Positions 14,951-64,000 of a stretch of 64,000 nucleotides of DNA are shown one piece after another. The position numbers were made by a program, and so were the translations under genes. Source of the stretch: Halichondria panicea (taxonomy: Eukaryota > Porifera > Demospongiae > Suberitida > Halichondriidae); the NCBI RefSeq assembly GCF_963675165.1, contig NC_087380.1:1070303-1134302 (forward strand), read 5' to 3'. Below the pieces are notes generated by a model that searched no databases, was not told where the DNA came from, and saw only the letters and a program-made list of their open reading frames with translations. The number at the start of each line of letters is the position of its first letter. Position 1 is the stretch's first letter.

Positions 14951-14987
<37 letters not shown>

Positions 14988-29970: not shown

Positions 29971-31781
29971 TCATATTCCTCCAGCAGTTGGAGCCTCACG
30001 CCCACTCACAGTCGAGTAGGCATCATTCTGTGTGTAGCTGTAGTCACCTTTGACCTCTCTGGAGCCTGGGATCTCCTCGTAAATGGCAGGGACAGTCTCG
30101 TAGATAGTAGCTGCACTTTGACCCTGGTCAGTAAGGGAGATATCTCGAGGAACAGTCCTGTGTGTGGAGAGAACACTTAGTAGTAACTTGTCATAAAAGC
30201 TTTCACTTTGTTTAGTGCTTGTTTACACTGAATAAAGTGTGTCTACCTAAAACAATAACACTCTACACAAACCACTTTGAACAAGCTCTCACATTTCCCC
30301 TCCTCTCTTGCATCTGAGCAATAAATGTGTATACGTACATGCACACAGTGTGATAATCATTTCAGCTTGTCTTACCTCCAGCAGCTGCAGGCCCCGACAA
30401 TGATACCCACCACAATGACAGCGGCTAGAATGAGTAACACAATGACTACACCTGCCACCACACCTCCTGTGCTGCTAGTTCCACCAGGGCCTGTGGGGAG
30501 GTTGCTAGTGATGAATTCAGTCACTGAAACACAACATATGATAATTATTATACAGTAAAATTAAGGATGAGAACACAGACCCACTTACCTAACTGCACAC
30601 AGAATGTCACATCTACTCCAGTATTGTCAGGAATCACACAGCAGTAGGAGCCAGTGGGGCCTGACACATACCCTCGACGATGGAGTCTGAGTGCACCTGT
30701 ATCTCCAACACTGTACAGTAGATCTGTGTCCGAATCAGTACTATGAATATCCGGACTCCTTGTGACAGCTGTTCCATTCGGTAGTAGCCAATATCCTAAT
30801 CCATTGGCACTATTGGGATTATCTTCTCCTGTACAGCAAATAGTTGAGTCAGTTCTGCAAGTCAATACAGTCTCAGTGGTATCTCCGATGGTCTCTATGG
30901 CAACCTGTGAGTTATTAGCAGCATAGTTGGTGGTTCCCATGGAGACGTAGACAGGAGGTACTGTGGGGGTGGGGGATTGTAACTGTGTTAGAGTTCATTG
31001 TACTAGCTTACATTGACAAGTGAGAGCTGACCCACTCCAGGTCCCATCATTCTGACAAGCTCTGACACTCCCTCCAGTGAGAGTGTAGCCATTGTCACAA
31101 GTGTAGGTAGCAATGGCATTAATAGGTCTGCTGTCAGCAAGTCCATCAGTGTAGGTAATGACTCCATTCATTAGTGGTGGTAAATCAAAACAAGTTCCTG
31201 AAATAGTGAACATACATTCAACAATAATAAACAGTACAACTTTAATTCCACTCACGCTGACAAGTTGGAGTTGACCCACTCCACACTCCATCACTCCCAC
31301 AAGTCCTCACTGACACTCCAACAAGACTGAAGCTATTGGTACAAAAGTGAGTAGCTGTAGCACCTACTGGTCTGTTGTTAGTTGATCCACTGTTGTAGAC
31401 TATGCCTCCATTGGTGGGGGTGAGGTCAGAACACAGCAGCACAACTGGGGGGGAGGGTGGGAGTGGTTAGTTATTATCTGTGGCTAGCAATACAGACTGA
31501 GGGTTTAAAATGTGTTTTATACACTAACCATAAGTTGGAGTTTCTGTCGTCAAAACATACGTAGCCATTGCTTCTTCAGTGGTGGCCATGGTGGTAGCTT
31601 CTTCAGTGGTAGGCAAATTGACTGGAGCAGTAACTAGGTGTATATGAAAGATACATTAAAATAATGATATATAACTAACTGCTAGAAACAGATTATCAAC
31701 TAGATTACATGGCTGTCCCCAGCAGGTGGACACAGCACACAACAACAACAGCAGCAGAAGCAGAACACCTTGAGTCTCCAT
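29971..31781 (-). CDS. Sushi/CC-Ig transmembrane receptor A
   Basis: Exons 31781-31709, 31633-31529, 31444-31256, 31197-31012, 30960-30589, 30523-30376 and 30157-29971 sum to 419 residues. The order is signal peptide (METQGVLLLLLLLL), a Thr/Glu-rich stalk with two TTEEA repeats, two sushi domains (RTCGSDGVWSGSTPTCQ type), a membrane-proximal CC-Ig domain (LTCRTDSTICC, WLLPNGTAV, GSYCCVIPDN), a transmembrane helix (VVAGVVIVLLILAAVIVVV) and a 62-residue tail. The tail holds TIYETV (fits the ITSM pattern T.Y..V), IYEEI, YSYTQN and YSTV. It is the shortest member and the only one with the stalk exon and with a helix not followed by RYKRGGKM. It has the conserved upstream box. A cell-surface recognition or signalling receptor is inferred. 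Confidence 0.85.
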
Positions 31782-32208
31782 TGCTTCTTTCCAGAGACAT
31801 AGTCTAGTTATCTGTTAGAGAGTTGTTCCATTAAGGATCTTTACCCACTCACATGGAGTTCCCAGGCAGATATTTTTCTGATATACCAGAAAACCATAGT
31901 CTATGTTGTACCAAATTAGGTGAAAAACATTGTGAAAGGGAGGGGCTGATAAAGTACTTACCTTAAGGTGACGTATTTTCGCGTGTATTAATTAATTTCT
32001 GCTATTTCTGCGAATAAGTAAAATCGCAAAAATTAGTACTCGCAAATAATTGGCCGCCCTCTTGTTTAGATCGACATTAATTTTCGCAAAAAATTATACT
32101 AGCAAAATGTACAAAACTGTAAAACGCAAACAAATCTACCTGTGAAAATATGTATATCTGTGGTTTGTACAAACACTTATTTTCTACTTGAGTCATGTGA
32201 TAGTTCAG
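31782..32208. other. Intergenic region A/B
   Basis: This stretch holds the receptor A upstream box (31822-31858) and, at 31970-32150, AT-rich sequence with several TTTTCGC / GCGAAAAT blocks that may be a decayed inverted-repeat element. No gene is seen. Confidence 0.5.
31822..31858 (-). promoter_or_regulatory. Conserved upstream box, receptor A
   Basis: On the plus strand it reads GTTGTTCCATTAAGGATCTT then TACCCACTCACATGGAG. It begins 41 bases upstream of the start codon. Confidence 0.6.
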
Positions 32209-34745
32209 TTATTGTATTCCTCCAGCAGCAGGAGCCTCACGCCCACTCACAGTCGAGTAGGCATTGTTCTGTGTGTAGCTGTAGTCACCTTTGACCTCTT
32301 TGGAGGCTGGGATCTCCTCATAAGTGGCAGGGACAGTCTCGTAGGTAGCGGCTGCACTTTGACCCTGGTCAGTAAGGGGGATATCTCGAGGAACAGTCCT
32401 GTGTGTGGAGAGAACAAATGACTTTATAGTATTATGACAACAAATACTTTCAGTTTGTTTAGTCCATTGAAGCTTGTTTACACTGAACAAAGTAACTATA
32501 ATGACACTCTACACAAACCACACAAACCACACAAACAAACTCACATTTTCCCTCCTCTCTTGTACCGGAGCACTAGGTAGGTCACCATCACTACACCAGT
32601 TACTATAACCACCACTGCTACCAGGGCCACCACTCCTCCCACCACAGCACCAGTGTTGTCACTCTGGGGGCAGGGAGAGCTAGTAGAGGCTGTCATGGAA
32701 TGTATGGAATTAGCATTATGAGGAAAGGAAGGACTTCAGCCACTAAATGAACAAAGCTTATTTACGTACCATACCTAACTGCACACAGAAGGCTTGGATG
32801 ATCATTATTGTTAATCTATTAGAGTACATTGTGTACTTACATTGACAAGTGAGAGCTGATCCATTCCACAATCTGTCAGCTCCACACACTCTGATAGCAG
32901 TGCTGGTAGTGGAGGGTACGTATCCATTCAAGCAGATCTGTGTAGCCATGGTTCCCTCTAGTCTGGGGGTGGTAGCTTGACTGTAGATGATCACTCCATT
33001 GGCTGGTACAGTGAGGTCAGGACAGGTAGTCGGTGGAGGTTCAGTGGGTCCTGCATAAGTTGAATCAATGAACTCAAGTGGTGGAAGTGTACACAACTCA
33101 CCTTGACAAGTTGGAGTTGACCCACTCCAGCTCCCTCCACTCACACAGACCCTGGTAGTGTCCCCTCCAGTGAGAGTGTAGCCATTACTACAGCTGTAGG
33201 TAGCTCCAGTGTTCACTGGTCTGTTGTCAGGGGATCCACCATTGTAGGAAACCATCAGTGTGGGTAATACTAGATCAGAGCAGGTTATCTCTGTACGAGA
33301 AAATAGGTACCAACAAAAGAATAGTTGACACTCAGTACCACTTACGCTGACAAGTTGGGGGTGACCCATTCCAGATCCCTCCATCCACACAGACCCTGCT
33401 GGTACCTCCAGTGAGAGTGTAGCCAGTGTTGCAGGAGTGCACAGCACTAGTGAGGAAAGGTCTGTTGTTAGTGGATCCAGTACTGTACATAATCATCCCA
33501 TTGTTCAGTGATGGTAAGTCAGAGCAGTCAGCTGTATGGGAGATGATACACTCAACAAACAAACAGTACAAAGTCCATTCCACTTACGCTCACAAGTTGG
33601 AGCAAACCCACTCCACACTTCATCACTCCCACAAGTCCTGGTGGTGCTGCTGATTCCATTGAGAGTGTAGCCAGGGTTACAGGTGTAGGTGGCCACAGTG
33701 TCCACTTGTCTGCTGTCAGGGAATCCACCACCTCCATAGTCAATGTCTCCATTTGCCAGTGAGGGTAGGTCAGAGCAGGTTATCACTATGGGAACAGGTA
33801 CACACTCAACGTACACAATATTACACATTCAGTCATTCCTTACTCTGACACACTGGAGCTGTTGTTGAGCTCCACTCTCCATCACTCCCACAAGTCCTCA
33901 CTGACACTCCAACCAGAGTGTAGGGAGGGAAGCAGCTGTAACTGGCTGTAGCTCCCACTGGTCTGTTGTTAGTGGATCCACCAGCATAGAGTATGCCTCC
34001 ATTAGAGATGGTCGGGAGGTTATCAGAACATGTGACTGAAGTAGGTGCAACTGCAAGAGGAGGGGGGGGCAAAGGTTATGAGGATAATGGAACTAGGAGA
34101 GTTGTGATGGTTTCAAGAACTTATGAAGATGAACGTGTACACACATGCTGGCTGATATAAAACACAGAAGTAAGACAATGATACTCACTCACCCAGGTTG
34201 GCACAGAGGGTCATATCTCCTCCAGTAGTTGGTACAGTACAACAGTAGGACCCAGTTGGAGTGACAGGGTTGTTAGCCTCTCTACGAGCCAGTCTGATGA
34301 CCTGAGGTGCCTTCCTTAGAACGTAGAACTGCTGTCCAGCAGTCGCTGAGGCACTATTCCACAGTATCACACTCCCATCAGGATACATCCACTGTCCTAG
34401 TCCTCCATTACCATTGTTGTCATTGTTTCTACAGCAGGTAGTGAGGTCAGTGTGACAAGTGAGAGATGGAAGACCACCAGTAGCATCCTCTCCAATGGTA
34501 GTGATGAAGATCTCAGTATTGTCAGTGGTGATACTAGGACCAGATCCCAGTGTCAGGTAGACTATGAATGGTTAGACCATAGATTAAGGAATTATACAGA
34601 GCTCATAGGTATCACCAATAGCAGTAAACCAAGCTAGTTGAGATATCACACTCAGGATATCTAGCTTATCAACTAGATTACCTTGTCCCCAGCAGGTGGA
34701 CACAGCACACAACAGCAGCAGAAGCTGAACACTTTGAGTCTCCAT
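32209..34745 (-). CDS. Sushi/CC-Ig transmembrane receptor B
   Basis: Exons 34745-34682 (signal), 34561-34193 (N-terminal CC-Ig), sushi 34050-33844, 33785-33588, 33531-33346, 33290-33102 and 33050-32841, transmembrane 32689-32545, tail 32398-32209; 585 residues in frame. The N domain shows LTCHTDLTTCCR, WMYPDGSV and GSYCCTVP. The helix is VVGGVVALVAVVVIVTGVVM followed by the stop-transfer RYKRGGK. The tail has TYETV, TYEEI, YSYTQN and YSTV and ends GGIQ. The membrane-proximal CC-Ig exon is missing. A remnant of its last 30 bases (near 32769-32801) remains in the intron, and genes D and G share the same remnant, pointing to a common ancestor. Confidence 0.85.
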
Positions 34746-35184
34746 TGCATGCACAACCTTCCTTGTCTCTGTTTGGTTAATATCTGTTTGGAAATTGTTT
34801 CATTAAGGATCTTTACCCACATAGAACAAAAACGGCCAAGAACAAATGGCTTGTTAATGTACATGTATGTAGGTGCTGTTTGTGTCAAAAACCCTACTAG
34901 TAAACTTTCTATGACCTTTATGTTATGATGGCCGCAGTGCAGGGCACCGTTTGTGACAATTAAAGCGTCACACGTAAATCAGCCGATACAGTGAAGAGCA
35001 TTTTCATGTACATTAAACTGCACATGGTGTTTTGTACCCCATTATGGAAAACCATCAAATTTTTGAGGTGAAACACATTGTGAGAAGGGGAGGGACTGAT
35101 GAAGTATGTATAACTGTGTGCTCTGTACAAACTAACAAATAAAATTCAAGACATAATTACTTTCTACTTGAGTCATGTGATAGT
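34746..35184. other. Intergenic region B/C
   Basis: This holds the receptor B upstream box (34795-34820), the segment ATGGCCGCAGTGCAGGGCAC (34928-34947) that recurs between several genes of the array, and the 3' flank of receptor C. No gene is seen. Confidence 0.5.
34795..34820 (-). promoter_or_regulatory. Conserved upstream box, receptor B
   Basis: Core ATTAAGGATCTTTACCCAC (plus strand), 50 bases upstream of the start codon. The CACATGGAG end of the box is not conserved here. Confidence 0.5.
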
Positions 35185-38100
35185 TCAGTTATTGTATATT
35201 CCTCCAGCAGCAGGAGCCTCACGCCCACTCACAGTCGAGTAGGCATTGTTCTGTGTGTAGCTGTAGTCACCTTTGACCTCTCTGGAGGCTGGGATCTCCT
35301 CATAAGTGGCAGGGACGGTCTCGTAGGTAGCGGCTGCACTTTGACCCTGGTCAGTAAGGGAGATATCTCGAGGAACAGTCCTGTGTGTGGAGAGACAAGT
35401 AAACTTTGTACATAATTATAGCAATTTGTCATAACAGCTTGTTTAGTCCATATAAAGCTTGTTTACACTGTTCAAACAAAGTGCTACTTAAACTAATGTA
35501 CACAAACCACACAAACCACTTTTGTGTCTACTTAAACCAACTCACATTTTCCCTCCTCTCTTGTACCGGAGCACTAGGTAGGTCACCATCACTACAGTGA
35601 CTGCAATCACCACCATTGCTACCAGGGCCACCACTCCTCCCACCACAGCACCAGTGTTGTCACACTGACAGAGAGAGGTCTCATCAGTAGAGGCTGTAAT
35701 GGAATGCATTAGGACATGCAACCTAACAATAATAGCTTCACTTACTTGTAGTGGAGGGAGAGGTAGTGATGACTTCAGTCACTGAAACACGGCATAATCA
35801 AATGATGAGAACACAGACCCACTTACCTAACTCCACACAGAAGGCTTGGATGACCCCGGTATTGTCAGGAATCACACAGCAGTAGGAGCCAGTGGGGCCT
35901 GACACAGACCCTCGACGATGGAGTCTGAGTGCACCTGTATCTCCAACACTGTACAGTAGATCAGTGTCTGAATCAGTAATGTCCAGACTCCTAGTGACAA
36001 CTGTTCCATTCGGTAGTAGCCAATCTCCTAATCCATTATCACTATTGGGATTATCTCGTCCTGTACAGCAAATAGTTGAGTCAGTTCTGCAAGTCAATGC
36101 TGTCTCAGTGGTATCTCCGATGGTGTCTATGGCAACCTGTGAGTTCACAGCAGCATAGTTGGTGGTTCCCATGGAGACGTAGACAGGAGGTACTGTGGGG
36201 GTGGGGGATTGTAAGTCTGTTAGAGTACATTGTACTAGCTTACATTGACAAGTGAGAGCTGATCCACTCCACAATCTGTCAGCTCCACACACTCTGTTAG
36301 TGCTGGTAATGGAGGGTACGTATCCATTCAAGCAGCTCTGTGTAGCCACGGTTCCCTCTAGTCTGGGGGTGGTAGCTGGACTGTAGATGATCACTCCATT
36401 GGCTGGTACAATGAGGTCAGGACAAGTGGCTGTGGAGACAGCACAATGTATTAACCATCAACACACTAGCTTGTACTCCTTACCTTGACAAGTTGGAGGT
36501 GACCCACTCCACACTCCATCACTCCCACAAGTCCTGGTGGTGCCTCCATTGAGAGTGTAGCCAGTGTCACAGGTGTATGTGGCCACAGTGTCCACTGGTC
36601 TCAGACTAGCAGTCCCCATATTGTAGCCAATCATTCCATTGATTGGCACAGTGAGGTCAGGACAGGTGGTGGGTGGTTCAGTGGGTCCTGTGTTCACTGT
36701 ATCAAGAAAGGTGAAGCAACTGTTAAGATGTAGTGGAACTCACATTGATAGGTTGGAGCTGTTCCACTCCAGGTGCCATCATTCTGACAAACTCTGAAAC
36801 TCCCTCCAGTGAGAGTGTAGCCATTGTCACAAGTGTAGGCAGCAATGGTATTAATAGGTCTGCTGTCAGCAAGTCCATCAGTGTAGGCAATGCCTCCATT
36901 CATTAGTGGTGGTAAATCAGAACAAAATCCTGAAAATTACAATCATTCAAAACAAACAGTACCGAGCCCGTCCACTTACGCTGACAAGTTGGAGTTGATC
37001 CACTCCAGGTCCCATCATTCTGACAAACTCTGAAATTCCCTCCAGTGAGAGTGTAGCCATTGTCACAAGTGTAGGTAGCAAAGGTATCAACAGGTCTGCT
37101 GTCAACAAGTCCAGCCTCATAGGTAATGCCTCCATTCATTAGTGGTGGTAAATCAGAACAAGTTCCTGAAATAGTGAACAAGTAAACAGTACAACTTGAA
37201 TTCCACTTACGCAGCTGACAAGTTGGAGGTGACCCATCCCAGATCCCTTCAGTCACACAAAACCTGGTGGTACCTACACTGAGAGTACCTCCAGTGAGAG
37301 TGTAGCCAGGGTTACAGGAGTATGTAGCACTAGAGCCGAAAGGTCTGTTGCTAGGGGATCCACCACTGTACATGATCATCCCATTGATCAGTGAGGGTAA
37401 GTCAAGGCAGTTAGCTGTATGGGAGACGTTGCACTCAACAAACAAACAGTACAAAGTCCATTCCACTTACTCTGACACACTGGAGCAAACCCACTCCACA
37501 CTCCATCACTCCCACAAGTCCTGGTGCTGCCTCCATTGAGAGTGTATCCAGTGTCACAGGTGTAGGTGGCCACAGTGTCCACTGGTCTGCTGCCAGGGGA
37601 TCCAGCACCCCCATAGTCGATGTCCCCATTTGTCAGTGAGGGTAAGTCAGAGCAAGTTATCACTATGGGAACAGGTACACACTCAACGTACACATTATTA
37701 CACATTCAGTCATTCCTTACTCTGACACAGTGGAGCTGGTGTTGAGCTCCACTCTCCATCACTCCCACAAGTCCTCACTGACACTCCAACCAGAGTGTAT
37801 GGACCAAAACAAACGTAACTGGCTGTAGCACCCACTGGTCTGTTGTCAGTGGATCCACCAGCATAGGTTATGTCTCCATTAGTGGGGGCCGGAAGATTAT
37901 CAGAACATGTGACTGCAAGAAAGGGAAAAGGTTATGAGCATGATACAATGGAACTAGGAGAGGTGTGATGGTTTCATGAACTCATGAAAGGAGTGAACAT
38001 ATACATACTTAGACTCGCTGGCCAGTTCCATCATCACTTCTTGAGGATTGGGACTGGTCAACTGCAAATCAACGAGTTGTTCTCATTACCGAAATCGGTA

Positions 38101-39130
38101 ATGACCAATCACAGTGCAGAAGCAATGTCATGTGACATACTTCGCCCACGTAATTCGTTGTAGCTGGGCTGGGTCTTATGTTGTGTTAGATAAACCACGG
38201 GACATAACCCACATTCACTTGATAGTTACGCAACTTTGGTCAACCACACAAACCACAATATGATGTCATGCAACTAATTAAAATTCCACTAGAACAGATT
38301 TTGGCAGTTGACCAGTCCTAATCCTCAAGAAGTGATGATGGGACTGGCCAGCGAGTCTAATACATACTATAGAGGGCCATTTGTGACAAAAATGGGTAGT
38401 AAATGTAAATTAAAGAAAAAGCACGTTCAGTAAACGCGTCTAGGAAACGCGTATTGCCTATCTACACATGTAGGAAATGCATTATGCGTATAGACTCGAA
38501 GGAAATACGTTGTGAGGCCCCTAGCCTCGACTCCAGCCCCTTCAACAGTGGCGCTTTTCCCTGCGGCCTGGAATCGAGGCTATGAGGCCCCATTCAGATG
38601 AAGCAAGGGTCAGAGGTCAAATTAGAGGTCAGCTGGCACTGGCCAAGGGTTTGGTGTATCTCGATCTCGCGCACACAAGTACTTCTAGGCCAAGGGGGAA
38701 TTCCAATGTGATCAATTGCTATCAGGTGACTTGAATAGGAGGCAGCAATTTTACATGCGGTTGAGCAGGATAAGATGAGATAATGGATGTGGTTAAAATA
38801 ATGGTTTTGTAGCTTGTACAGTGACGTATTATACATTCCATTGTGGCATGAGTTCACGTAAAGAGTGCTCAGACGTTCCTCCTTGAGAGGTGCGGCTGAT
38901 TCACGAGATCTAAGATTAACGGTAGTCTTGCGGATCATACTTGAACTGATTTTGGTAATTCAAAGTATGGCCAGTGAGACTAAGATTAAGGGGTACGCTT
39001 TAATATATGTTCGTACATCTATGCTAGTTGAGATATCACAGCTAGGATTACCTTGTCCCCAGCAGGTGGATACAGCACACAACAGTAACAGCAGCAGAAG
39101 CTGAATACCTTGAGTCTCCGTTGCAGCCAT
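35185..39130 (-). CDS. Sushi/CC-Ig transmembrane receptor C
   Basis: Exons 39130-39052 (signal), sushi 37912-37721, 37662-37471, 37414-37211, 37165-36980, 36929-36744, 36696-36484 and 36429-36244, CC-Ig 36192-35827, a 12-residue linker 35781-35746, transmembrane 35693-35546, tail 35380-35185; 727 residues in frame. There is no N-terminal CC-Ig domain, so the signal exon splices directly to sushi. The usual start ATG is ACG here, but an in-frame ATG nine bases upstream (MAATETQG) restores a start. The sushi exon at 36744 has Tyr for its last Cys (PTYQ). The tail ends GIYNN instead of GIQ. Intron 1 carries a 350-bp element, and the usual upstream box is absent, replaced by a hairpin element. 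Confidence 0.75.
38010..38359. mobile_element. 350-bp terminal-inverted-repeat element
   Basis: Terminal inverted repeats of about 60 bases, with three mismatches by eye, start TAGACTCGCTGGCCAGTTCC. An exact 9-bp target duplication ATACATACT lies at 38001-38009 and 38360-38368. The interior is non-coding. The TAG.CTCG terminus and 9-bp duplication ally it with the TAGCCTCG family. It lies in intron 1 of receptor C. Confidence 0.93.
38522..38582. mobile_element. 61-bp TAGCCTCG-family MITE
   Basis: Termini TAGCCTCGACTCCAG and CTGGAATCGAGGCTA, with an exact 9-bp duplication TGAGGCCCC at 38513-38521 and 38583-38591. It is also in intron 1 of receptor C. Confidence 0.92.
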
Positions 39131-39491: not shown

Positions 39492-42400
39492 AGTTTCCCT
39501 CCTCTCTTGTACCGGAGCACTAGGTAGGTCACCATCACTACACCAGTTACTATAGCCACCACTGCCACCACTCCTCCCACCACAGCACCAGTGTTGTCAC
39601 TCTGGGGACAGGAACAGCCAGTAGAGGCTGTAATGGAATGTATGGAAATAGCAAAAAGGAGCAGGACTTCAGCCACTTATTGCACAAAGCTTATTTACGT
39701 ACCATACCTAACTGCACACAGAAGGCTTGGATGAGAGTATATTGTGTACTTACATTGACAAGTGAGATCTGCTCCACTCCACGATCCGTTAGATAGACAC
39801 ACTCTGGTAGCAGTGCTGGTAGTGGAGGGTACGTATCCATTCAAGCAGATCTGTGTAGCCATGGTTCCCTGAGGGTGTGGTGAGGTACTAGAGCTATAGA
39901 TGATCACTCCATTGGTTGGTTCAGTGAGGTCAGGACAGGTGGTGGGTGGAGGTTCAGTGGGTCCTGCATGAGTTGAATCAATGAACTCAAGTGGTGGAAA
40001 GTGTGCACAACTCACCTTGACAAGTTGGAGGTGACCCACTCCAGCTCCCTCCATTCACACAGACCCTGGAGGCATCCCCTCCAATGAGAGTGTATACCCA
40101 TTACTACAGCTGTAGGTAACTCCTGTATCCACTGGTCTGATGTCAGGGGATCCACCATTGTAGGAAACCATCAGTGTGGGTAAATCAGAGCAGGGTATCT
40201 CTGTACGGGAATAGGTACATTCAACAAAAGAATAGTTAACACTCAGTAACACTTGAATAGTGAACATACATTCAAACCGTATAAATCTTACGCTGACAAG
40301 TTGGAGCTAACCCACTCCACACTCCACTCCCACAAGTCCTGGTGCTGCCTCCATTGAGAGTGTAGCCAGTGTCACAGGTGTAGGTGGCCACAGTGTCCAC
40401 TGGTCTGCTGTTAGTGGATCCACCACCACTATAGTTGATGATCCCATTTGTCAGTGAGGGTAGGTCAGAGCAGGTTATCACTATGGGAACAGGTACACAC
40501 TCAATGTACACACTATTACACATTCAGTCATTCCTTACGCTGACACACTGAAGCTGTTGTTGAGCTCCATTCTCCATCACTCCCACAAGTCCTCACTGAC
40601 ACTCCAACCAGAGTGTAGGGACCAAAGCAGCTGTAAACAGCTGTAGCACCCACTGGTCTGTTGTCAGTAGACCCACTAACATAGGTTATGGCTCCATTAG
40701 AGATGGTTGGGAGATTATCAGAACATGTGACTGAAGTAGGTGCAACTGTAAGAGGGGTAAATTATGACAATAGAGAGTTGTATGGCTTCATGAACACATA
40801 CACATAAAACCATAGATAGTAGAGGAGAGGGATTGGAAACGCATACGTAAATGCCCAGCCCATGCGTGTCACGGTTAAATTTCTTCCTTTCCTGCCTCCG
40901 TCACTAGAAATTGACCTTTGTCCTATGATAATTTTAGTATTTTAATCTTTAACAGCCAAAAGACAGGCAGGAAGGCTACTACTGACTAGCCAGAAAGAGA
41001 CATGAGACAGGCAGGAAGGCTACTAGGATCAAGTTAGGCTACTAGCTTCCATTCGTGTTTCAGAAGTTAGTATTAGAGGAGTTTTCGCCATTGTATGAAA
41101 TAGTTTACAGTGGGATCAGACACAGTGTTAATAGAAGTTCAAGAACATGTTAACTTCTCTTTTATAGATCTAGATCATAAACAATTCATTATACAAACAA
41201 TTTAACATAATTATTGTATGTCTACTCGTGATGTAAAGACAGAAATAATGATGCAATTTTCTTGAACGTCCTCTTTGGTATATAGTGGTTCAGTGAACGT
41301 GCTACAGTCTGCCGATGTAAACTCTGAAGAAGCATCATCAGATGCACACAATCTGAGATTAAAAACAGTATCAGTTTGAGGTAACAGTTACCTTGGGTCT
41401 TCCACAACTGACACTTCCGTCGTTTATTCTCTCATAACTCTTCCCCAAAAAACTTGCCGATCCATTCGTATAACTACAAATAAAGTGTACAATAGCATGT
41501 AGTAACATTAAAGGGTCACTTCTAGCCTATATACATTTGCTACTTCAACACCTACACTTCCACAAAATCCCACAAGTGAAAGTCATGAGTGTGATAATAA
41601 ATTTGTCAGCAAATACTACCATGGAGAGTCAATCACAAAGTTGCTACATTTAAAAAACACTTAACATACCACTGTACTTGTCTTCAATCTCAAACAGGCT
41701 GTACTTCTTTTTGGAGAGATAAAAAAATCCCACAATCCTCAGCCAGTCAAGGAAAGCTTAAAAAACTCATGAAACTCCTTTAGTAGACACTTCTAGGTTA
41801 AGGTTACAACTATACTAGGTACTAAGAGCATAGTACTAACTGGCATAGCCCTGTGCAATATCCCTGAGGCCAAGGCACTTCTCTGTCCTTCTAAAAAGAT
41901 GCCTTGCTTCAGTTACCGCTACAGCATTGCGTGGGCGTAGGCGAGACACGGATGGGCCGAAATTGTACTGAGTCCCACGCATGCGTTTCCAATCCCTCTC
42001 CTCTACTGTCTATGATAAAACACAGCAATTATTGACTCACCCAGATTAGCACACAGGGTCATCTCTCCTCTAGTAGTTGGTACAGTACAACAGTAGGACC
42101 CAGTTGGAGTGAGGGGGTTGTTAGCCTCTCTACGAGCCAGTCCGATGATCTGAGTTAAACCATTCCTGTTAATGTAGAACTGCTGTCCAGCATCATCTGA
42201 GGGACCCTTGCGCAGTACCACACTCCCATTAGGATACGTCCACTGTCCTAGTGCTCCATTACCATTGTTGTCACCACTTCTACAGCAGGCAGTGAGGTCA
42301 GTATGACAGGTGAGAGAAGGGAGACCACCATCCTCTCCAATGTCAGTGATGAGGATCTCAGTATTGTTAGTTGTGATGCTAGCACCAGATCCCAGTGTCA

Positions 42401-42593
42401 GGTAGACTATGAATGGTTAGACCATAGATTAAGGAATTATACAGAGCTCATAAGTATTACCAATAGCAGTAATCTAAGCTAGTTGAGATATCACACTCAG
42501 GATATCTAGCTTATCAACTAGATTACTTTGCTGTCCCCAGCAGGTGGACACAGCACACAACAGCAGCAGCAGCTGAACACTTTGAGTCTCCAT
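39492..42593 (-). CDS. Sushi/CC-Ig receptor D, tail-less
   Basis: Exons 42593-42527 (signal), 42406-42041 (N CC-Ig), sushi 40745-40539, 40480-40292, 40200-40016 and 39963-39754, transmembrane 39627-39492. No tail exon follows: the sequence downstream of the helix exon breaks off into unrelated DNA near 39354. Reading through the last donor gives KRGGKL then a stop, so the gene could still make a membrane protein with almost no cytoplasmic part. The sushi exon 40200-40016 is 185 bases, not a multiple of three (a +2 insertion at GTGTATACC relative to B), so that exon is out of frame unless skipped. A 1.2-kb element sits in intron 2. A CC-Ig remnant lies at 39704-39734. It may be a decoy receptor or a decaying gene. 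Confidence 0.6.
40811..42014. mobile_element. 1.2-kb terminal-inverted-repeat element in receptor D
   Basis: The ends CATAGATAGTAGAGGAGAGG continuing GATTGGAAACGCAT are inverted copies over about 38 bases with two mismatches. The flanks ATAAAAC (40804-40810, 42015-42021) form a 7-bp duplication. Gene I, at about 60288-60300, has the same intron sequence uninterrupted (ACATAAAACACAGCAATT), which defines the empty site. The interior has a direct repeat (AGACAGGCAGGAAGGCTACT twice) and no recognisable transposase. Confidence 0.9.
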
Positions 42594-53800: not shown

Positions 53801-54074
53801 AGACCAGCATCCTCTCCAATGTCAGTGATGAGGATCTCAGTATTGTTAGTAGTGATACTAGGACCAGATCCCAGAGTCAGGTAGACTATGAATGATAGAC
53901 CATAGATTAAAAAATTAGACAGACAACACAGAGCTCACACCAATACAATAATTATAGCAGTAAACTAGTTAGCTAGTTGAGGTATCACAATATTATCACA
54001 GGATTACCTTGCTGTCCCCAGCAGGTGGATACAGTACACAACAGCAACAGAAGTTGAACACCTTGAGTCTCCAT
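50808..54074 (-). pseudogene. Sushi/CC-Ig receptor G, probably damaged
   Basis: Exons 54074-54008 (signal), 53885-53520 (N CC-Ig), sushi 53378-53172, 53113-52919, 52862-52674, 52620-52437, 52389-52174, 52117-51932, 51875-51687 and 51634-51421, transmembrane 51278-51134, tail 50997-50808. With eight sushi exons it is the longest in the array. The 52620-52437 exon is 184 bases (a 2-base deletion that also removes a Cys). The 51634-51421 exon is 214 bases (a 4-base GTTA duplication) and its donor is GC instead of GT. Both could be skipped in frame. It shares with B and D the loss of the membrane-proximal CC-Ig exon (remnant 51345-51380). The tail ends GGIQ. Confidence 0.6.
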
Positions 54075-54397: not shown

Positions 54398-56900
54398 TCA
54401 GTTATCATATATTCCTCCAGCAGCAGGAGCCTCACGCCCACTCACAGTCGAGTAGGCATTGTTCTGTGTGTAGCTGTAGTCACCTTTGACCTCTCTCGAG
54501 GCTGGGATCTCCTCATAAGTGGCAGGGACGGTCTCGTAGGTAGCGGCTGCACTTTGACCCTGGTCAGTAAGGGGGATATCTCGAGGAACAGTCCTGTGTG
54601 TGGAGAGAACAGATGATATTACTATTAGTAGTAATTATGACAATAAAAGCTTTCAGTTTGTTTAGTCCATATAAAGCTTGTTTACACAACAAAGTGTGTC
54701 TACTTAAACTAATGACACAAACCACTTTAAACCAACTCACATTTTCCCTCCTCTCTTGTACCGGAGCACTAGGTAGGTCACCATCACTACAGTCACTGCA
54801 ATCACCACCACCACTGCTACCAGGGCCACCACTCCTCCCACCACAGCACCAGTGTTGTCACACTGACAGAGAGAGCTCTCATCAATAGAGGCTGTAATGG
54901 ACAACCCACAAGTTGTTAGTACTAACCTAACACAATACATGCTGTACTCATCTCAATAATAGTACCACTTACTTGTAGTGGAAGGAGAGGTAGTGATGAC
55001 TCCAGTCACTGAAACACAGCACAATACAGTAACAGGATGAGAACACAGACCCACTCACCTAACTCTACACAGAATGTCACATCTACTCCAGTATTATCAG
55101 GAATCACACAGCAGTAGGAGCCAGTGGGACCTGACACAGACCCTCGATGATGGAGTCTGAGTGCACCTGTATCTCCAACACTGTACAGTATATCCGTGTT
55201 TGAATCAGTAATGTCGAGACTCCTAGTGACAGCGGTTCCATTCGGAAACAGCCAATCATTGGCACTATTGGGATTATCTTGTCCTGTACAGCAAATAGTT
55301 GAGTCAGTCCTGCAAGTCAATGCTGTCTCAGTGGTATCTCCGATGGTGTCTATGGCAACCTGTGAGTTACTAGCAGCATAGTTGGTGGTTCCCATGGAGA
55401 CGTAGACAGGAGGTACTGAGGGGTGGGGGATTGTAACTCTGTTAGAGTTCATTGTACTAGCTTACATTGACAAGTGAGAGCTATTCCACTCCAGGTCCCA
55501 TCATTCTGACAAGTTCTGAAACTCCCTCCAGTGAGAGTGTAGCCATTGTCACAAGTGAAGGTAGCAATGGTATTAACAGGTCTGCTGTCAACAAGTCCAC
55601 CAGTGTAGGTCACGGTAATGACCCCATTTATTAGTGGTGGTAAATCAGAACAAGGTCCTGAAAATGAATAGTGAACATACATTCAAACTGTATAAATCTT
55701 ACGCTGACACACTGGAGCTGACCCACTCCACACTCCACCACTCCCACAAGTCCTGGAGCTGGTGTTGAGCTCCACTCTCCATCACTCCCACAAGTCCTCA
55801 CTGACACTCCAACCAGAGTGTAGGGACCAAAGCAGCTGTACTCAGCTGTAGCACCCACTGGTCTGTTGTCAGTGGATCCACCAGTATAGGTTATGCCTCC
55901 ATTAGTGGGGGCCGGGAGATTATCTGAACACGGGATTGGAGGAACTGCAAGAGGAGATATGGAAAGCGCATGATACAATAGAACTGCATAGAAAAGTTGT
56001 AATGGTTTCTTGAACTCATGAAAGGGATAACACATACAAATACTAGGTGGGTACTGAGGGAGGTGGCTGAATACTGAATACTGACAAATACGGCGGTCAC
56101 AAAAATGTGGCATTGTATACATTCCCTGAGATCAATTCAAATTTTGTATATCAGTATCAAAATTCAAATTCTAAGCGAGTATTTAAATATATGATGCATG
56201 TGCTTCATAACCTCTGACCTTTTAGTCTTGACCTATGTACTGTGCTGCTACCAAGCTAGCTAGCTATAGCCCTGGTACCAAGAGAGGAGCGACTAGGTAT
56301 GGTAGCTTGAGATAAGAGAGTGCTCCAGCACCCATGCTTCCTACTCCCTTGTACTTACCTAGGTTAGCACAGAGGGTCATATCTCCTCCAGTAGTTGGTA
56401 CAGTACAGCAGTAGGACCCGGTTGGAGTGAGGGGGTTGGTAGTTTCTCTACGGTTTAATCTGATGACCTTACGAGTATTCTTATTAATGTAGAATTGCTG
56501 TCCAGCATTATTTGAGGCACCATTCCTCAGTATCACACTTCCATCAGGATACGTCCACTGTCCTAGTGCTCCACTACCATTGTTGTCACCACTTCTACAG
56601 CAGGCAGTGAGGTCAGTGTGACAGGTGAGAGAAGGGAGACCAACATCAGCATCCTCTCCAATGTCAGTGATGAGGATCTCAGTATTGTTAGTAGTGGTGA
56701 TACTAGAACTGGATCCCAGAGTCAAGTAGACTATGAATGATTTATAGACAGAGCTCACAGGTATCACCAAGATATAGCTAACCTAGTTGAGATATCACAC
56801 TCAGGATACCTAGCTTATCAACTAGATTACCTTGTCCCCAGCAGGTGGACACAGCACACAACAGCAACAGCAGCAGAAGCTGAACATTTTGAGTCTCCAT
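54398..56900 (-). CDS. Sushi/CC-Ig transmembrane receptor H
   Basis: Exons 56900-56831 (signal), 56730-56359 (N CC-Ig), 55944-55703 (sushi, chimeric), 55657-55466 (sushi), 55415-55059 (CC-Ig), 55008-54973 (linker), 54891-54741 (transmembrane), 54593-54398 (tail). The membrane-proximal CC-Ig is shortened by three codons (SANDWLFPNG). The 242-base sushi exon carries two consecutive sushi C-termini fused at GGAGCTGG and is out of frame by two bases; skipping it would leave a complete frame with both CC-Ig domains and one sushi. The tail ends GIYDN. A clear upstream box is not seen; only a degenerate GTAAAGATCGTTAATCGAAC lies near 56953. Confidence 0.65.
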
Positions 56901-57163: not shown

Positions 57164-60100
57164 TTATTGTATTCCTCCAGCAGCAGGAGCCTCACGCCCA
57201 CTCACAGTCAAGTAGGCATTGTTCTGTGTGTAGCTGTAGTCACCTTTGACCTCTTTGGAGGCTGGGATCTCCTCATAAGTGGCAGGGACGGTCTCATAGG
57301 TAGCAGCTGCACTCTGACCCTGGTCAGTAAGGGAGATATCTGGAGGAACAGTCCTGTGTGTGGAGAGACAAATAAACTTTGTAGTAATTTGTCATAACAG
57401 CTTGTTTAGTCCATATAAAGCTTGTTTACACTGTTCAAACAAAGTGCTACTTAAACTAATGTACACAAACCACACAAACCACTTTAAACCAACTCACATT
57501 TTCCCTCCTCTCTTGTACCGGAGCACTAGGTAGGTCACCATCACTACACCAGTTACTATAGCCACCATTGCTACCAGGGCCACCACTCCTCCCACCACAG
57601 CACCAGTGTTGTCACACTGAGCACCGACAGAGCTCTCATCAGTAGAGGCTGTAATGGAATGTATATGAACTGACAACCCACAATAATTATGTCACCAACC
57701 TAACACAATACATGCAGTATCCATCCCTCCACTGGTAGGCACCACACAGCAGTAGAGACCACCAGGAGCAGCAGCTGTTCCACTCATCATCAGACTGACA
57801 CTCATCTGATCTCTGCTAACATACAACGCTCCATCCTCCATAATAACAGAGCCATTAGGATAGTACCAATCTCCAGTGTTCCCCTCACAGCAGCCAGCAA
57901 GGTCAGTATGACAGACGAGGCCACTCCCATCTCCCACGGTGGACAGAGGGATCTCAGAGAGCCCAGACAAGTAGTTGGTGGAGGAGAGGGACAAGTACAC
58001 AGGGGGAGGGACTATGGGGGGGTCGTGATAATATATATAGCCACATTGCAAAAATGACCGCTTACTCTGGCAAGATGGTGAGGTGCTCCAGTTACCAGTA
58101 CTCAAACATGTGATGGTTTCAGAGCCAATCAGAAGGTATCCAGTGTCACAGGTGAAGGTCGCCTCTCCTCCGATTATTGTGCTGGTTGGTTGTCCGGGAG
58201 ATCCGTTGTCAATAGAGGGAGGGGGGCCACAGGAAACTGTCAACAAGGATATTTAGTATTTGCTATAACTATTAATTTTGTCCTCACCTCGACAAGTTGG
58301 AGGTGACCCATTCCATGTTCTGTCATTCTGACAAACTCTGACACTGTCTCCATTGAGAGTGTAGCCAGTGTTGCAGCTGTGTGTAGCTATGGTGTTGATA
58401 GGTCTGATGTCAGTGGATCCACCATTATAAGAAATGGCTCCATTAGGCAGAGAGGGTAAGTCAGAACAGATTAGTATCTCTGTATGCATAGGAATATATA
58501 TACTCAGCAAATACAGCACAAGTATTTACTTACGTTGACAAGTTGGAGCTGACCCACTCCACACTCCATCACTCCCACAAGTCCTGGTGGTGCCTCCATT
58601 GAGAGTGCAGCCAGGGACACAGGTGTAGGTGGCCACAGTGCCCACTGGTCTCGGACTAGTAGTCCCCGTATTGTAGCTGATCATTCCATTGGACGGAGCA
58701 GTGAGATCAGAGCAGGTGGTGGGTGGTTCAGTGGGTCCTGTGTTCACTGCAATTATCGAGTGTGAGATGCATAACTTAACTATACGTTAACTTGACGTAA
58801 TTATTTCTAACCATAAATTTGATTCCATTGGGTTTATGCGTATAAGTCCATACGGTATAGACTCTCGTTAATATGGTCACCCTTGGGACAGTGCAGCTTG
58901 GCCGAAATAGCGAGGTGGCTATATTTCAGGAAATAATCACGACTAAAAAATGACCCTACCTCAAATCTAAATGCGGTTCTGTCTCAAGGATAATGAATTG
59001 TTATGCTCTCAACTTTATCTGCCAAACCACAGCACAAACGTCATATCCGGCCGTAATAAATGTCATGATACATTAAAACCTAGTTTGGGGCAGCCAGCTG
59101 GTCAGTATAATACAGAATAGCGAGTGGTAATTTTTGTGCAGTAAACATCTAGCTAGCTATCTGTGCCAAACCAAATGCCGTTAGGCCATGCAAGTTAGTT
59201 TGTAGTTTCTCAGGCCCTCGAAGTTAAAGTTAAATATTATGTGACCTCAAATTAGAGGCACTAAAAGAAAAAGGATAAATTTGTATGGGTTTTTGGTCAT
59301 GAATATAATTATGACTAAAATTAAATTATGCACTTCCACTTATTGAGGAGGTTAGGGGTGTTTTCAATTAAAATTATATGAATATCATTATCATAATCCG
59401 GTTGCTATTTTAGGAATGATACCCTGAGAAACTACAAATTGACTTTGTGTAGGAGTTACAGAGCTCACCTTGACAAGTTGGAGGTGACCCACTCCAGATC
59501 CTTTCAGTCACACAGACCCTGGTGGTACTAACAGTGAGAGTGTAGCCATGGTTACAGCTGTAGGTAGCACTAGAGCCGACAGGTCTGTTGTTAGTGGATC
59601 CAGCACTGTACATAATCATCCCATTGGCTAGTGAGGGTAGGTCAGGGCAGTTAGCTGTATGGGAGATGATACAGTCAACAAACAAACAGTACAGAGTCCA
59701 TAATTATACGTACGCTGGCAATTAGGAGGTAGCCCATTCCCACTGCCACTCCACACTCCATCACTCCCACAAGTCCTGGTGGTGACTCCATTGAGAGTGT
59801 AGCCAGTGTCACAGGTGTAGGTGGCCATAGTGTCCACTTGTCTGCTGTTAGTAGATCCAGCACCACCATAGTCAATGTCCCCATTTGTCAGTGAGGGTAG
59901 GTCAGAGCAGGTTACTATGGGAACAGGTACACACTCAACGTACACATTATTACACATTCAGTCATTCCTTACGCTGACACACTGGAGCTGACCCACTCCA
60001 CTCTCCATCACTCCCACAAGTACTAGTCCTCACTGACACTCCAACCAGACGGTAGTCACCAAAGCAGCTGTAAGTGGCTGTAGCACCCACTGGTCTGTTG

Positions 60101-60854
60101 TTAGGAGATCCACTAGCATAGGTTATAGCTCCATTAGAGATGGTCGGGAGATTATCAGAACATGTGACTGAAGTAGGTGCAACTGCAAGAGGTGGGGGGG
60201 GGGAGGCAAAGGTTATGAGCATGATACAATGAAACTAGGAGAGGTGTGATGGTTTCATGAACTCATGAAGGGTGAACACACACACATAAAACACAGCAAT
60301 TATTGACTCACCCAGGTTAGCACAGAGGGCCATATTTCCTCCAGTAGTTGGTACAGTACAACAGTAGGACCCGGTTCAAGTGAGTGGGTTGTTAGCCTCT
60401 CTACGGTTTAGTCTGATGACCTGAGGTGCATTCCTGTTAATGTAGAACTGCTGTCCAGCCTGCGCTGAGCCACCATTGCTCAGTACTTCACTCCCATCAG
60501 GATACGTCCACTGTCCCAGTCCTCCCATACCATTGTTGTCAGCAACACTTCTACAGCAGGCAATGAGATCAGTGTGACAGGTGAGAGAAGGGAGACCACC
60601 ATCCTCTCCAATAGTAGTGATGAGGATCTCAGTATTGTCAGTGGTGATACTAGGACCAGATCCCACAGTCAGGTAGACTATCGGCGGAATGGTTAGATCA
60701 TTTATAGACAGAGCTCATAGGTATCACCAAGCTAGGTATGGTATCCTGAGTGTATCACACTCAGGATACCTAGCTAATCAACTAGATTACCTTGTCCCCA
60801 GCAGGTGGACACAGCACACAACAGTAGTAGCAGCAGAACACCTTGAGTCTCCAT
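57164..60854 (-). CDS. Sushi/CC-Ig transmembrane receptor I
   Basis: Exons 60854-60791 (signal), 60677-60312 (N CC-Ig), sushi 60182-59973, 59914-59714, 59654-59469, 58746-58534, 58479-58288 and 58236-58066, CC-Ig type 2 58011-57700, transmembrane 57648-57498, tail 57353-57164. The membrane-proximal CC-Ig is a distinct subtype (LVCHTDLAGCCEG, WYYPNGSV, GLYCCVVPTS). The innermost sushi is the most canonical (CGPPPSIDNG). An in-frame TGA at 60378-60376 interrupts the N CC-Ig exon where paralogues read Pro or Arg; the CGA in receptor G suggests a CpG transition. Skipping that 366-base exon would restore the frame. A roughly 720-base intron (58747-59468) carries no exon. The tail has YLTV in place of YSTV. 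Confidence 0.65.
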
Positions 60855-61400
60855 TGCATGCCTTATCTCTGTTTGGAACTGCTATTTGGTAGTTGTTCCA
60901 TTAAGGATCTTTACCCACCCACATGGAGTGCATAAGACAGACGTTAAAATAGAATAAAAAAGGCCCAGAACAATGACTTTTTTAAAAAAATGCCTGTTTC
61001 ACTGTATTAATTCTCTATAATTATTGTAATGCTTGACGAAATCAGTGTAAACTCATGCGCTCTCTATGACATTTAATATTATGATGGCCGTGCAGTGCTG
61101 GACACTAGTTGTGACAATTAAAGCATCAACAGAAGGTGAAGGGTTAAGGTTGCAGTAACACAGCTAGTGCGGGGATATTAATCTGGACAACGATATAGTG
61201 AATTAGGAGGATAGTTTATCACCCGATACGTACAGTGAAGAGCATTTTCATGACATTAAACTGCATATTATTATTACATGGAAAGCCATCATATTTTTGA
61301 GGTGAAACACATTGTGAGAAGGGGAGGGGCTGATGAAGTATGTATAACTGTGTGCTCTGTACAAAGTCACGAGACATAATGATTTTCTACTTTTGATAGT
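60855..61400. other. Intergenic region I/J
   Basis: This has the receptor I upstream box, the spacer segments near 61085-61160 (GTGACAATTAAAGCATCAAC; GGTGAAGGGTTAAGGTTGCA) and the conserved 3' flank of receptor J. No gene is seen. Confidence 0.55.
60892..60927 (-). promoter_or_regulatory. Conserved upstream box, receptor I
   Basis: Core TTGTTCCATTAAGGATCTTT then ACCCACCCACATGGAG, 38 bases upstream of the start codon. Confidence 0.6.
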
Positions 61401-64000
61401 TCAGTTATTGTATATTCCTCCAGCAGCAGGAGCCTCACGCCCACTCACAGTCGAGTAGGCATTGTTCTGTGTGTAGCTGTAGTCACCTTTGACCTCTCTG
61501 GAGGCTGGGATCTCCTCATAAGTGGCAGGGACAGTCTCGTAGGTAGCGGCTGCACTTTGACCCTGGTCAGTAAGGGGTATATCTTGAGGAACAGTCCTGT
61601 GTGTGGAGAGAACAGATGATATTACTTTGTAGTAATTATGACAATAAAACCTTTCAGTTCCATTGAAGCTTGTTTACACTGACAAAGTGTGTCTACTTAA
61701 CTAATGTACACAAACCACACAAACCAACTCACATTTTCCCTCCTCTCTTGTACCGGAGCACTAGGTAGGTCACCATCACTACAGTGACTGCAATCACCAC
61801 CATTGCTACCAGGGCCACCACTCCTCCCACCACAGCACCAGTGTTGTCACTCTGAGCACCCACAGAGCTATCATCAGTAGAGGCTGTAATGGAATGTATG
61901 AACTGCAATGACAACCAACAAGTCACTAACCTAACACAATGCACGCTGTGTCCCTCCCTCCACTGGTAGGCACCACACAGCAGTAGAGGCCACCAGGAGC
62001 AGTAGCTGTTCCACTCATCATCAGACTGACACTCATCTGACCTCTGCTAACATACAACGCTCCATCCTCTATAACAACAGAGCCATTAGGATAGTACCAA
62101 TCTCCAGTGTTCCCCTCACAGCAGCCAGCAAGGTCAGTATGACAGACGAGGCCACTCCCCTCTCCCACGGAGGACAGGGGGATCTCAGAAAGCCCAGATA
62201 AGTAGTTGGTGGAGGAGAGGGACAAGTACACAGGGGGAGGGGCTATGGGGAGTCGTGACAATAATTACAAAAACAACCGCTTACTCTGACAGGATGGTGA
62301 GCTGCTCCAGTTACCAGCACTCAAACATGTGATGGTTTCAGAGCCAATCAGAATGAATCCAGTGTCACAGGTGTAGGTCGCCTCTCCTCCGATCATTGTG
62401 CTGGTTGGTTGTCCGGGAGATCCGTTGGTAATAGAGGGAGGAGGGCCACAGGAAACTGTTTTTATAACAATTCAGCATAATTATAGCATCTATAGGACAT
62501 ACAGAGTAGCTAGATGTAAAGTGCATCTATATAAAGAATGTACAGAAATATTTAAACACACTGACAGTATCAATATCTTCTATATTGTGTGTACTATATA
62601 ACAAGTTTGTTCCATAAAGTTATAGCGTGTGGGAAGAATGAGTATTGGTACATTGATGTTCGAAATCTAATTGATACCAGGGAGAGACCATTAACTGAAC
62701 GGCTATTGTAAACAATCTCTCTTCTTTCAACCGGTGGGTTGGGAAAGTCTATCATGTCATGTAAAACATTTTAACAAGGTTTACTATTTGCTGTATAATT
62801 ATGTGCTATTTGTTCTCACCTTGACAAGTTGGAGTTGGCTCACTCCATGTTCTGTCATTCTGACAAAGTCTGACCATGTCTCCATTGAGAATGTAGCCAG
62901 TGTTGCAGCTTTGTGTTGCTATAGTGTTGATAGGTCTGATGTCAGTGGATCCACCATTATAGGAAATGGCTCCATTATGCAGAGAGGGTAAGTCAGAGCA
63001 GATTAGTATATCTGTGTGCATGGATAGGCTCAACAAAAATACAGTACAAGTTCATTACTTACTCTGACACACTGGAACTGACCCACTCCACACTCCCCTA
63101 CAAATCCTCACTGCCTCTCCAACAAGACGGTAGCTATTGTCACAAGAGTGAGTAGCTGTACTGCCCACGGGTCTGTTGTTGGTGGATCCATTACTGTAGG
63201 TGATCATCCCGTTGACCAGAAAGAGTAAGTCAAAACAGGGTATCTCTGCACAGGAGTCGATACACTCAACAAACAAACAGTACAAGTCATATATTTACTC
63301 ACCTTGACAAGTTGAAGGTAACCCAGTCCACCTCCCTCCATTCCCACAGGTCCTGGTGGCACCTCCAGTGAGAGTGTAGCCAGGGTTACAGGAGTAGGTA
63401 GCTCCAGAAAAGATAGGTCTGTTGCCAGGGGATCCAGCATTGTAGCGGATCATTCCACTGGTCAGAGCAGTCAGGTCAGAGCAGGTGGTGGGTCCTGTGC
63501 TCACTGTGTATATAGGGTGTGATATCCTTAACATACAATTATATACTCACAAACACAAACTGTACAAGAGCTACATAACTCACCTTGACAAGTTGGAGGT
63601 GATCCAGTCCAGCTCCCTCCACTCACACAGAACCTGGTGGTACCTCCAATGAGAGTGTAGCCAGGGTTACAGGAGTGTAAGGCGCTAGAGAGGAAAGGTC
63701 TGTTGCCAGGTGATCCAGCACTGTACATAATCACCCCATTGGTCAGTGGCAAGTCAGGGCAGTTAACTGTATGGGAGATGATACACTTAACAGTACAAAG
63801 TTCATTCCACTTACGCTGACAAGTTGGAGCAAACCCACTCCACACTCCATCACTCTCACAAGTCCTGTTGGTACTGCTGACTCCACTGAGAGTGTAGCCA
63901 GTGCCACAGGTGTAGGTGGCCACAGTGCCTTCAAGTCTGCTGTCAGGGGATCCAGCACCATAGTCAATGTCCCCATTTGTCAGTGGGGGTAGGTCAGAGC
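61401..64000 (-). CDS. Sushi/CC-Ig transmembrane receptor J (5' end beyond window)
   Basis: Visible exons: sushi from 63815 (running past the window edge), 63766-63584, 63503-63303, 63245-63063, 63011-62820 and 62455-62285, CC-Ig type 2 62242-61931, transmembrane 61883-61733, tail 61596-61401. All seen joins keep the frame. It pairs with receptor I in having the type 2 CC-Ig domain and the canonical CGPPPSITNG sushi beside it. Its tail ends GIYNN, as in C. The first lobe of the tail reads VPQDIPLTDQG. The signal peptide and any N-terminal CC-Ig exon lie outside the window. Confidence 0.85.

Follow-up and report, generated by a model that had tools for sequence, protein, structure and literature searches.

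The mechanisms of invertebrate allorecognition have been called a complete mystery, and the proteins proposed as candidates in sponges, cnidarians and ascidians show no conservation, according to a review (PMC12065747). The same review describes the FcoR family of Botryllus, encoded at 53 loci, whose members combine a signal peptide, a V-type immunoglobulin (Ig) domain, a sushi domain, two C2-type Ig domains, a transmembrane (TM) segment and a tail with an immunoreceptor tyrosine-based inhibition motif (ITIM), a hemITAM or a YxxI/L/V motif; it also ascribes signalling motifs of the ITIM type or the activation type (ITAM) to the Alr receptors of Hydractinia. In Hydractinia and Podocoryna, the allorecognition genes are clustered and duplicated, and some lie outside the main complex (PMC13119343, part of the text). 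Here we have examined a window of 64,000 nucleotides from the sponge Halichondria panicea (NC_087380.1, hereafter contig C4; window = C4:1070303-1134302), which carries at window positions 29971-64000 a tandem array of receptor genes built of sushi domains and of a domain that we label CC-Ig. The genome analysis rests on one Halichondria panicea assembly. We found that related ectodomains, made of a modular V-like CC-Ig, a sushi stalk and a second CC-Ig, are joined to at least two conserved tyrosine tails and, judging by position, also to receptor protein tyrosine phosphatases (RPTPs), and that the array is probably one block of a multi-megabase recognition-receptor complex on C4. In our comparison, the closest described system appears to be Botryllus FcoR in layout and Hydractinia Alr in genomic logic.

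We scanned the window with profiles built from exons found in it and then modelled the genes. Ten minus-strand units, lettered A to J from the left, were rebuilt between window position 29971 and the right edge. A full unit consists of a signal peptide (METQ...STCWGQ), an outer CC-Ig exon (CCa), sushi exons, an inner CC-Ig exon (CCb or CCc), a TM exon and a tail exon; the two CC-Ig positions thus hold three sequence types, and some units carry only a single CC-Ig exon. With partial pieces included, the sushi counts from A to J are 2, 5, 7, 4, 5, 7, 8, 2, 6 and 7, one of the seven in J lying beyond the window edge. The units and two reference exons are as follows (window positions).

29971..31781, minus strand: gene A; signal peptide, 2 sushi, CCb, RPTP-type TM (30378-30461), YxxPhi tail (29971-30157)
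32209..34745, minus strand: gene B; signal peptide, CCa (34193-34561), 5 sushi, TM (32545-32689), tail (32209-32398); no second CC-Ig
35185..39130, minus strand: gene C; signal peptide, 7 sushi (one with a lost cysteine), CCb, TM, tail
39492..42593, minus strand: gene D, decayed; signal peptide, CCa, 4 sushi (one broken), TM; no tail exon found
43242..45793, minus strand: gene E; signal peptide, 5 sushi, CCb, stalk exon at about 43812-43841, TM, tail; RefSeq P0017
46473..50145, minus strand: gene F; signal peptide, CCa, about 7 sushi (first and third broken), CCb, TM, tail
50808..54074, minus strand: gene G; signal peptide, CCa, about 8 sushi (one frame-shifted, the last truncated), TM, tail
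54398..56900, minus strand: gene H; signal peptide, CCa, 2 sushi (one truncated), CCb, TM, tail
57164..60854, minus strand: gene I; signal peptide, CCa with an internal TGA, 6 sushi, CCc, TM, tail
61401..64000, 5′ end at 65255 beyond the window, minus strand: gene J; signal peptide, CCa, 7 sushi, CCc, TM, tail
32209..32398, minus strand: type-1 tail exon, example; YETV, YEEI, YSYTQN, YSTV
34193..34561, minus strand: outer CC-Ig (CCa) exon, reference for the hypervariable sites; six cysteines and one tryptophan invariant in the compared copies

Domain matches in the array had E values from 1e-10 to 1e-83, with the exception of one short sushi piece (3.5e-4). Half of the ten models are open and complete (A, B, C, E and J, with C short of one sushi cysteine) and half are decayed: D has no tail and a broken sushi, F, G and H contain frame-shifted or truncated sushi, and I carries the TGA in CCa. 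Beyond the window the array continues with units K and L, which look intact, and M, which has a broken sushi, giving 13 genes at C4:1100273-1147482. Phase-1 boundaries were found for 85 ectodomain exons of these 13 genes in a search that imposed phase 1; exons bounded in this way can be gained, lost or exchanged with the frame unbroken. Three RefSeq models gave the same exon reading as ours, namely P0002 (unit L, including one exon absent from our model), P0007 (unit K minus one sushi) and P0017 (gene E plus the small stalk exon), while P0008 ends within the frame-shifted sushi of gene G and P0021 covers the 3′ part of gene I. An assembly artefact, or uncollapsed haplotypes of one gene, is unlikely because the window contains no N and the copies differ at synonymous sites (dS of about 0.15 for CCa, 0.14 for CCb and 0.08 for the tail). 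The initial annotation of this DNA had described ten genes sharing strand, order of parts and tail, with two to eight sushi, one or both CC-Ig domains, tandem expansion, domain turnover and pseudogenes beside intact copies. The rebuilt units bear out the strand, the order, the sushi range, the CC-Ig content and the turnover, whereas the tail is kept in nine of the ten units (D being without it) and the array of ten is really one of 13, with J running past the edge.

Set against the described systems, the array resembles the FcoR/fester receptors of the Botryllus fuhc locus, which form large linked families with a signal peptide, V-type Ig, sushi, membrane-proximal Ig, TM and YxxI/L/V tail (PMC12065747, available portion). 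The shared order is signal peptide, CC-Ig, sushi, CC-Ig and TM, where the Ig fold of the sponge domain is a strong suspicion; the earlier statement that no described system has this layout was therefore too strong. The two differ in that FcoR has one sushi and two C2-Ig domains whereas the sponge units have two to eight sushi and one inner CC-Ig, in that ITIM or hemITAM tails occur in FcoR but not in the tail of this array, and in that apparent RPTPs with the same ectodomain are found in the sponge whereas the available text of PMC12065747 mentions none for FcoR. With the Alr complexes of Hydractinia and Podocoryna the sponge shares a chromosomal cluster of duplicated receptors (PMC13119343, part of the text), the V-like fold being only suggested here. 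Unlike Alr, it has additional tail types and apparent RPTPs, and its CC-Ig places extend over 0.11-4.40 Mb of one contig. Alr receptors are not known to have a sushi stalk. Among the defining traits of the two systems are also, for FcoR, genomic pairing with fester-family partners and, for Alr, genetic control of fusion or rejection together with extreme allelic polymorphism. Related ectodomains placed on opposing signalling ends are familiar from KIR/LILR and other paired immune-receptor clusters. These oppose each other through ITIMs that recruit SHP phosphatases, while opposition in the sponge would use transmembrane phosphatases, a likeness without demonstrated homology.

Protein searches revealed no sequence relation to Botryllus FcoR, which belongs to a different phylum, or to Hydractinia Alr. 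Searches with the CCa region of gene B (16 matches), the inner half of gene E (14 matches) and P0011 (20 matches) returned no named species other than Halichondria, within the limited sensitivity of a method that needs shared five-residue words and may miss distant relatives; this counts for the interpretation in the initial annotation. A scan of genome contigs for relatives found none, and a literature search, mostly without subscription papers, found no description of the complex. The NCBI names of the models (SVEP1, CSMD, complement receptor 1) reflect proteins that likewise contain sushi repeats. No Pfam match to CUB, VWA or pentraxin was present in P0001, P0002, P0003, P0007 and P0017, nor any EGF match over the cut-off (cEGF was below it in two), which sets these five models apart from SVEP1 and CSMD. 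One HRM match over the cut-off in P0002 overlapped a sushi. As for CC-Ig itself, the Ig label was given because of its C-W-YxC spacing and because of weak PDB profile matches, 11 of 12 of which were Ig domains (best E 0.0015); together they make an Ig identity a strong suspicion. The TIM (HAVCR) IgV domain gave weak profile matches (E 0.16-0.52) and has a double cysteine at the matching F-strand position, which is a lead rather than evidence of homology.

We then determined how far the family extends. Genome searches with CCa, CCb and CCc scored the best 150 of 298, 285 and 269 candidates, respectively; the resulting counts are lower bounds, and each query favours copies resembling itself. Pooled, they yielded at least 222 distinct CC-Ig exon places. 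C4 holds 195 of these, arranged from 107 kb to 4.396 Mb in long blocks of one strand, and the others are on C1 (9), C14 (7), C10 (5), C3 (3), C5 (2) and C12 (1). With a fourth query of greater divergence, the figures rose to at least 198 of 230. The regions C4:195-206 kb and C4:235-248 kb have the same layout, each with a pair of CCa exons and over 30 sushi exons, and are apparently a large duplication. A run of 200 N, perhaps a scaffold gap, stands at C4:107103, just ahead of the first giant CC-Ig gene. Two short contigs hold further family members, P0006 (8741 bp) and P0023 (3730 bp); P0006 matches the reference at no more than about 86% identity and may be another individual's copy or come from another species.

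The tail of the array, tail 1, occurs at 42 places in the genome, 39 of them on C4. Besides the example listed above, homologous exons start at window positions 29971, 35185, 43242, 46473, 50808, 54398, 57164 and 61401; across the nine tails in the window, identity to the query tail is 88-100%. Tail 1 contains three YxxI/V core motifs. In a comparison of 30 tails, the tyrosine of YETV, the whole of YEEI and the tyrosine of YSTV were kept in 30 of 30. YEEI is the textbook ligand of Src-family SH2 domains. A motif scan found no ITIM, immunoreceptor tyrosine-based switch motif, hemITAM or canonical ITAM in tail 1, so the 'kinase-type tail motifs' of the initial annotation are better worded as three YxxI/V motifs. 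A second ending, tail B (YEMI-x6-YEEV, YEMV, YENR), gave 35 matches, all on C4; its YEMI-x6-YEEV is ITAM-like but ends in V. Canonical ITAM (YxxL/I-x6-8-YxxL/I) and ITIM (S/I/V/LxYxxI/V/L) identities were ruled out by the scan in tail 1, in tail B and in the tail of P0011. Seven tail B places fall within C4:122-234 kb, where giant genes stand in a block and combine CCa, sushi and a second CC-Ig with a membrane-proximal domain rich in cysteine and a TM; one of these genes (C4:130-138 kb) was checked for Ig and FN3 domains. At C4:984130, CC-Ig and sushi exons are followed by a third tyrosine-rich reading frame. Potential partners are encoded in the same genome, where we found 71 matches to SH2 exons as well as tyrosine kinases, three open frames at C2:7.25 Mb holding SH2 and kinase matches together. 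Two SH2 genes on opposite strands lie inside the complex (C4:1810801-1814800 and C4:1871501-1875500); by eye, and from neighbouring frames, we take them to resemble PI3K p85 regulatory subunits. A run of tyrosine-kinase exon matches, many of them cut by stops or introns, occupies C4:2.52-2.76 Mb, where few CC-Ig places occur. On C10, a CC-Ig exon (C10:1716696) stands 1.6 kb before a tyrosine-kinase domain (C10:1718273) on the same strand, a possible CC-Ig receptor tyrosine kinase.

The link to phosphatases was drawn from exon order, strand and spacing, and from P0027, a partial model on contig C1 that contains part of a CC-Ig, five sushi, a TM, an I-set domain and the start of a protein tyrosine phosphatase (PTP) domain in one protein. 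PTP exons gave 176 matches in all; 127 of the 150 listed lie on C4, and of these 127, 113 fall within 0.09-2.62 Mb. When RPTP units were anchored on their cytoplasmic I-set exon among the matches listed, C4 held at least 35, and in 35 of 35 a PTP exon followed 1.4-5.1 kb downstream on the same strand. A CC-Ig exon stood 0.69-1.33 kb upstream in 26 of the 35, and the divergent CC-Ig query added two more (1361847 and 772392), giving 28. By position, related ectodomains would thus also be joined to RPTPs. The enzyme loop, VHCSAGVGRT, could be read at C4:96 and 104 kb, in two RPTP exons not shown to carry CC-Ig. Within the array, the TM exon of gene A (30378-30461) is unlike the usual array TM and resembles that of P0027 (24 of 31 residues), and a near-identical phosphatase-type TM is found just before a type-1 tail at C4:314461. 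Off C4, a CC-Ig exon at C12:4399855 precedes a PTP exon at C12:4402123 on the same strand.

Sequence diversity was then compared between the parts of the receptors. The pooled ratio of nonsynonymous to synonymous substitution rates (dN/dS) was 0.83 (0.61-1.16) in CCa (25 exons from the type-1 and neighbouring group), 0.57 (0.37-0.89) in CCb (14 exons) and 0.51 (0.31-0.86) in the tail (30 copies). Sites picked as variable in 16 CCa copies and measured in the other nine showed a ratio of nonsynonymous to synonymous differences between copies (pN/pS) of 2.57 (1.77-3.90) against the all-site pS, and the reverse test gave 2.78 (2.04-3.93) on the same basis, the two subsets not being fully independent if gene conversion links them; the remaining sites gave 0.43 and 0.68. 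About 20 CCa sites vary faster than the synonymous average, while none of the 58 full-length open CCa exons collected departs from the six cysteines or from W57 (exons with stops having been excluded at collection). Stops were present in 8 of 150 CC-Ig rows among the matches listed in one genome search. The codon model M2a was preferred over M1a in CCa (2dlnL, twice the log-likelihood difference, of 126.9). Failures of the four-gamete test numbered 755 among the 2016 site pairs of CCa, 194 among the 325 of CCb and 136 among the 496 of the tail; they are signs of recombination or gene conversion among units, to which repeated mutation would also contribute. Mantel tests between CCa and tail (r = -0.33, n = 8, P 0.88) and between TM and tail (r = 0.76, n = 12, P 0.03) were too small to lean on. 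In favour of the interpretation in the initial annotation, the copies show a hypervariable outer domain (cross-validated CCa sites, 2.6-2.8) on tails with near-fixed tyrosines, together with signs of exon-wise recombination.

We consider a recognition-receptor complex that signals by the balance of kinase and phosphatase to be the best reading, and a somewhat probable one. The recognition role proposed at the outset is partly supported, by the tandem expansion, the hypervariable outer domain and the conserved tails, in a complex larger than could then be seen. The outer CC-Ig would bind a variable ligand on another cell or on a microbe, and contact would cluster the receptors. A Src-type kinase would then phosphorylate the YxxPhi motifs, on which SH2 proteins would dock, while phosphatases with the same kind of ectodomain would oppose them, and the outcome would depend on how the two arms balance. 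The repertoire would be renewed through duplication, unequal exchange and gene conversion. Each step past a receptor with a YxxPhi tail is what we infer. Unlikely as a whole, but worth stating, is the further proposal that C4 is a sponge histocompatibility or self-tuned immune complex in which one hypervariable ectodomain family sits on phosphotyrosine-tail receptors and on RPTPs, identity being read as kinase/phosphatase balance and not by ITAM/ITIM pairs, with exon exchange between the arms.

Several observations weigh against this reading. On the fold, no Pfam Ig match of CC-Ig exceeded the cut-off (the best was I-set, 13.8 bits against 23.7, for CCc), HHalign of CC-Ig against local Ig domains gave a probability of 7%, and an AlphaFold2 model failed (mean predicted local distance difference test score 42). 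On the phosphatase arm, 7 of 35 RPTP units showed no CC-Ig upstream in the searches with the four CC-Ig queries, the PTP exons near CC-Ig are known by position and the catalytic loop was read only elsewhere, and the phosphatase-type TM at C4:314461 has one stop in the matched stretch. On diversity, the CCa hypervariable-site ratios fall to 1.7 and 1.3 when set against the local pS, and the overall CCa dN/dS allows relaxed constraint. M2a was also significant in the controls (2dlnL 24.5 for the tail and 32.8 for CCb) and the four-gamete failures make codon-model P values unsafe; we have not relied on these values because the controls are positive too and recombination is likely. Finally, recognition is read here from a single assembly.

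Among the alternatives, recognition of microbes is a tentative but serious one: the genes would encode pattern receptors for bacteria, whether food, symbionts or pathogens, leading to phagocytic uptake or rejection through Src and SH2, and their diversity would track microbes and not kin. In the available part of PMC8242945, sushi/Ig genes and sushi-bearing genes annotated as kinases respond to lipopolysaccharide in H. panicea, and most pattern-receptor genes are individual-specific in expression; sushi/Ig genes of A. aerophoba also respond to microbial patterns (PMC6208332, part of the text), and the hypervariable outer CCa fits such a role. Yet the same part of the lipopolysaccharide study reports no pattern-recognition receptor as differentially expressed and does not name genes of the complex, and RPTPs with a shared ectodomain would suggest balance or contact signalling over simple uptake.

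That the complex is a sponge histocompatibility locus, in which polymorphic CC-Ig receptors or ligands decide between fusion and rejection, we regard as almost equally tentative. The clustering of V-like Ig, sushi and YxxPhi tails is the layout of FcoR in the fuhc locus (PMC12065747, available portion), the complexes of Hydractinia and Podocoryna are likewise made of allorecognition genes in clusters (PMC13119343, part of the text), and the hypervariable outer domain, conserved tail and RPTP partners count in the same direction. However, the best reference identity of the 8.7 kb P0006 contig, about 86%, fits polymorphism or another species, and the words sushi and immunoglobulin do not occur in the main text of a grafting paper on Amphimedon.

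An adhesion or structural family, expanded for tissue cohesion, with high dN/dS from relaxed constraint and gene conversion and with tails of ordinary adhesion signalling, is improbable. Half of the window copies are decayed, CCa dN/dS is not above 1 overall and the NCBI names resemble extracellular matrix proteins, but the six cysteines and the tryptophan are invariant in 58 of 58 CCa exons while cross-validated sites vary 2.6-2.8 times the all-site pS, rows with stops are few (8 of 150 listed), and conserved SH2-type tails together with phosphatases would be unexpected of matrix proteins. We likewise give little credence to combinatorial splicing, in which the array would partly be one splicing unit with exons joined to the next gene's ending: P0001 does join the gene B ectodomain to the CCb, TM and tail of gene A, and the ectodomain phases are uniformly 1-1, but P0001 is a single gene-predictor model and P0002, P0007 and P0017 each stay within one unit.

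To the left of the array, we read neighbouring exons on the other strand as one gene:

11575..17196, plus strand: CC-Ig-like pieces, I-set Ig, FN3 (below cut-off), membrane-proximal cysteine domain

The last of these domains is common to other members of the complex. The window also contains, beside the array, a 522-residue open frame with both arginine-tRNA-protein transferase (ATE1) domains (6566-8134, plus strand), a probable homeobox gene (18657-20064, plus strand) whose last 14 homeodomain positions match at 19615, below the Pfam cut-off, an exon of the muniscin mu-homology domain (22078-22773, minus strand) and a 582-residue open reading frame with repeated PTVPVRSISPANSSRKTLEV-like units (3201-4949, plus strand).

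Sponges discriminate kin and microbes, and we know of no receptors identified for this discrimination. With its hypervariable domain, its docking tails that stay fixed and phosphatases that apparently carry the same sensor, the complex is a defined locus whose genotypes can be compared with the outcome of grafts. Should the two-arm arrangement be true, paired activating and opposing receptors built on one ectodomain would have arisen independently near the base of the animals.

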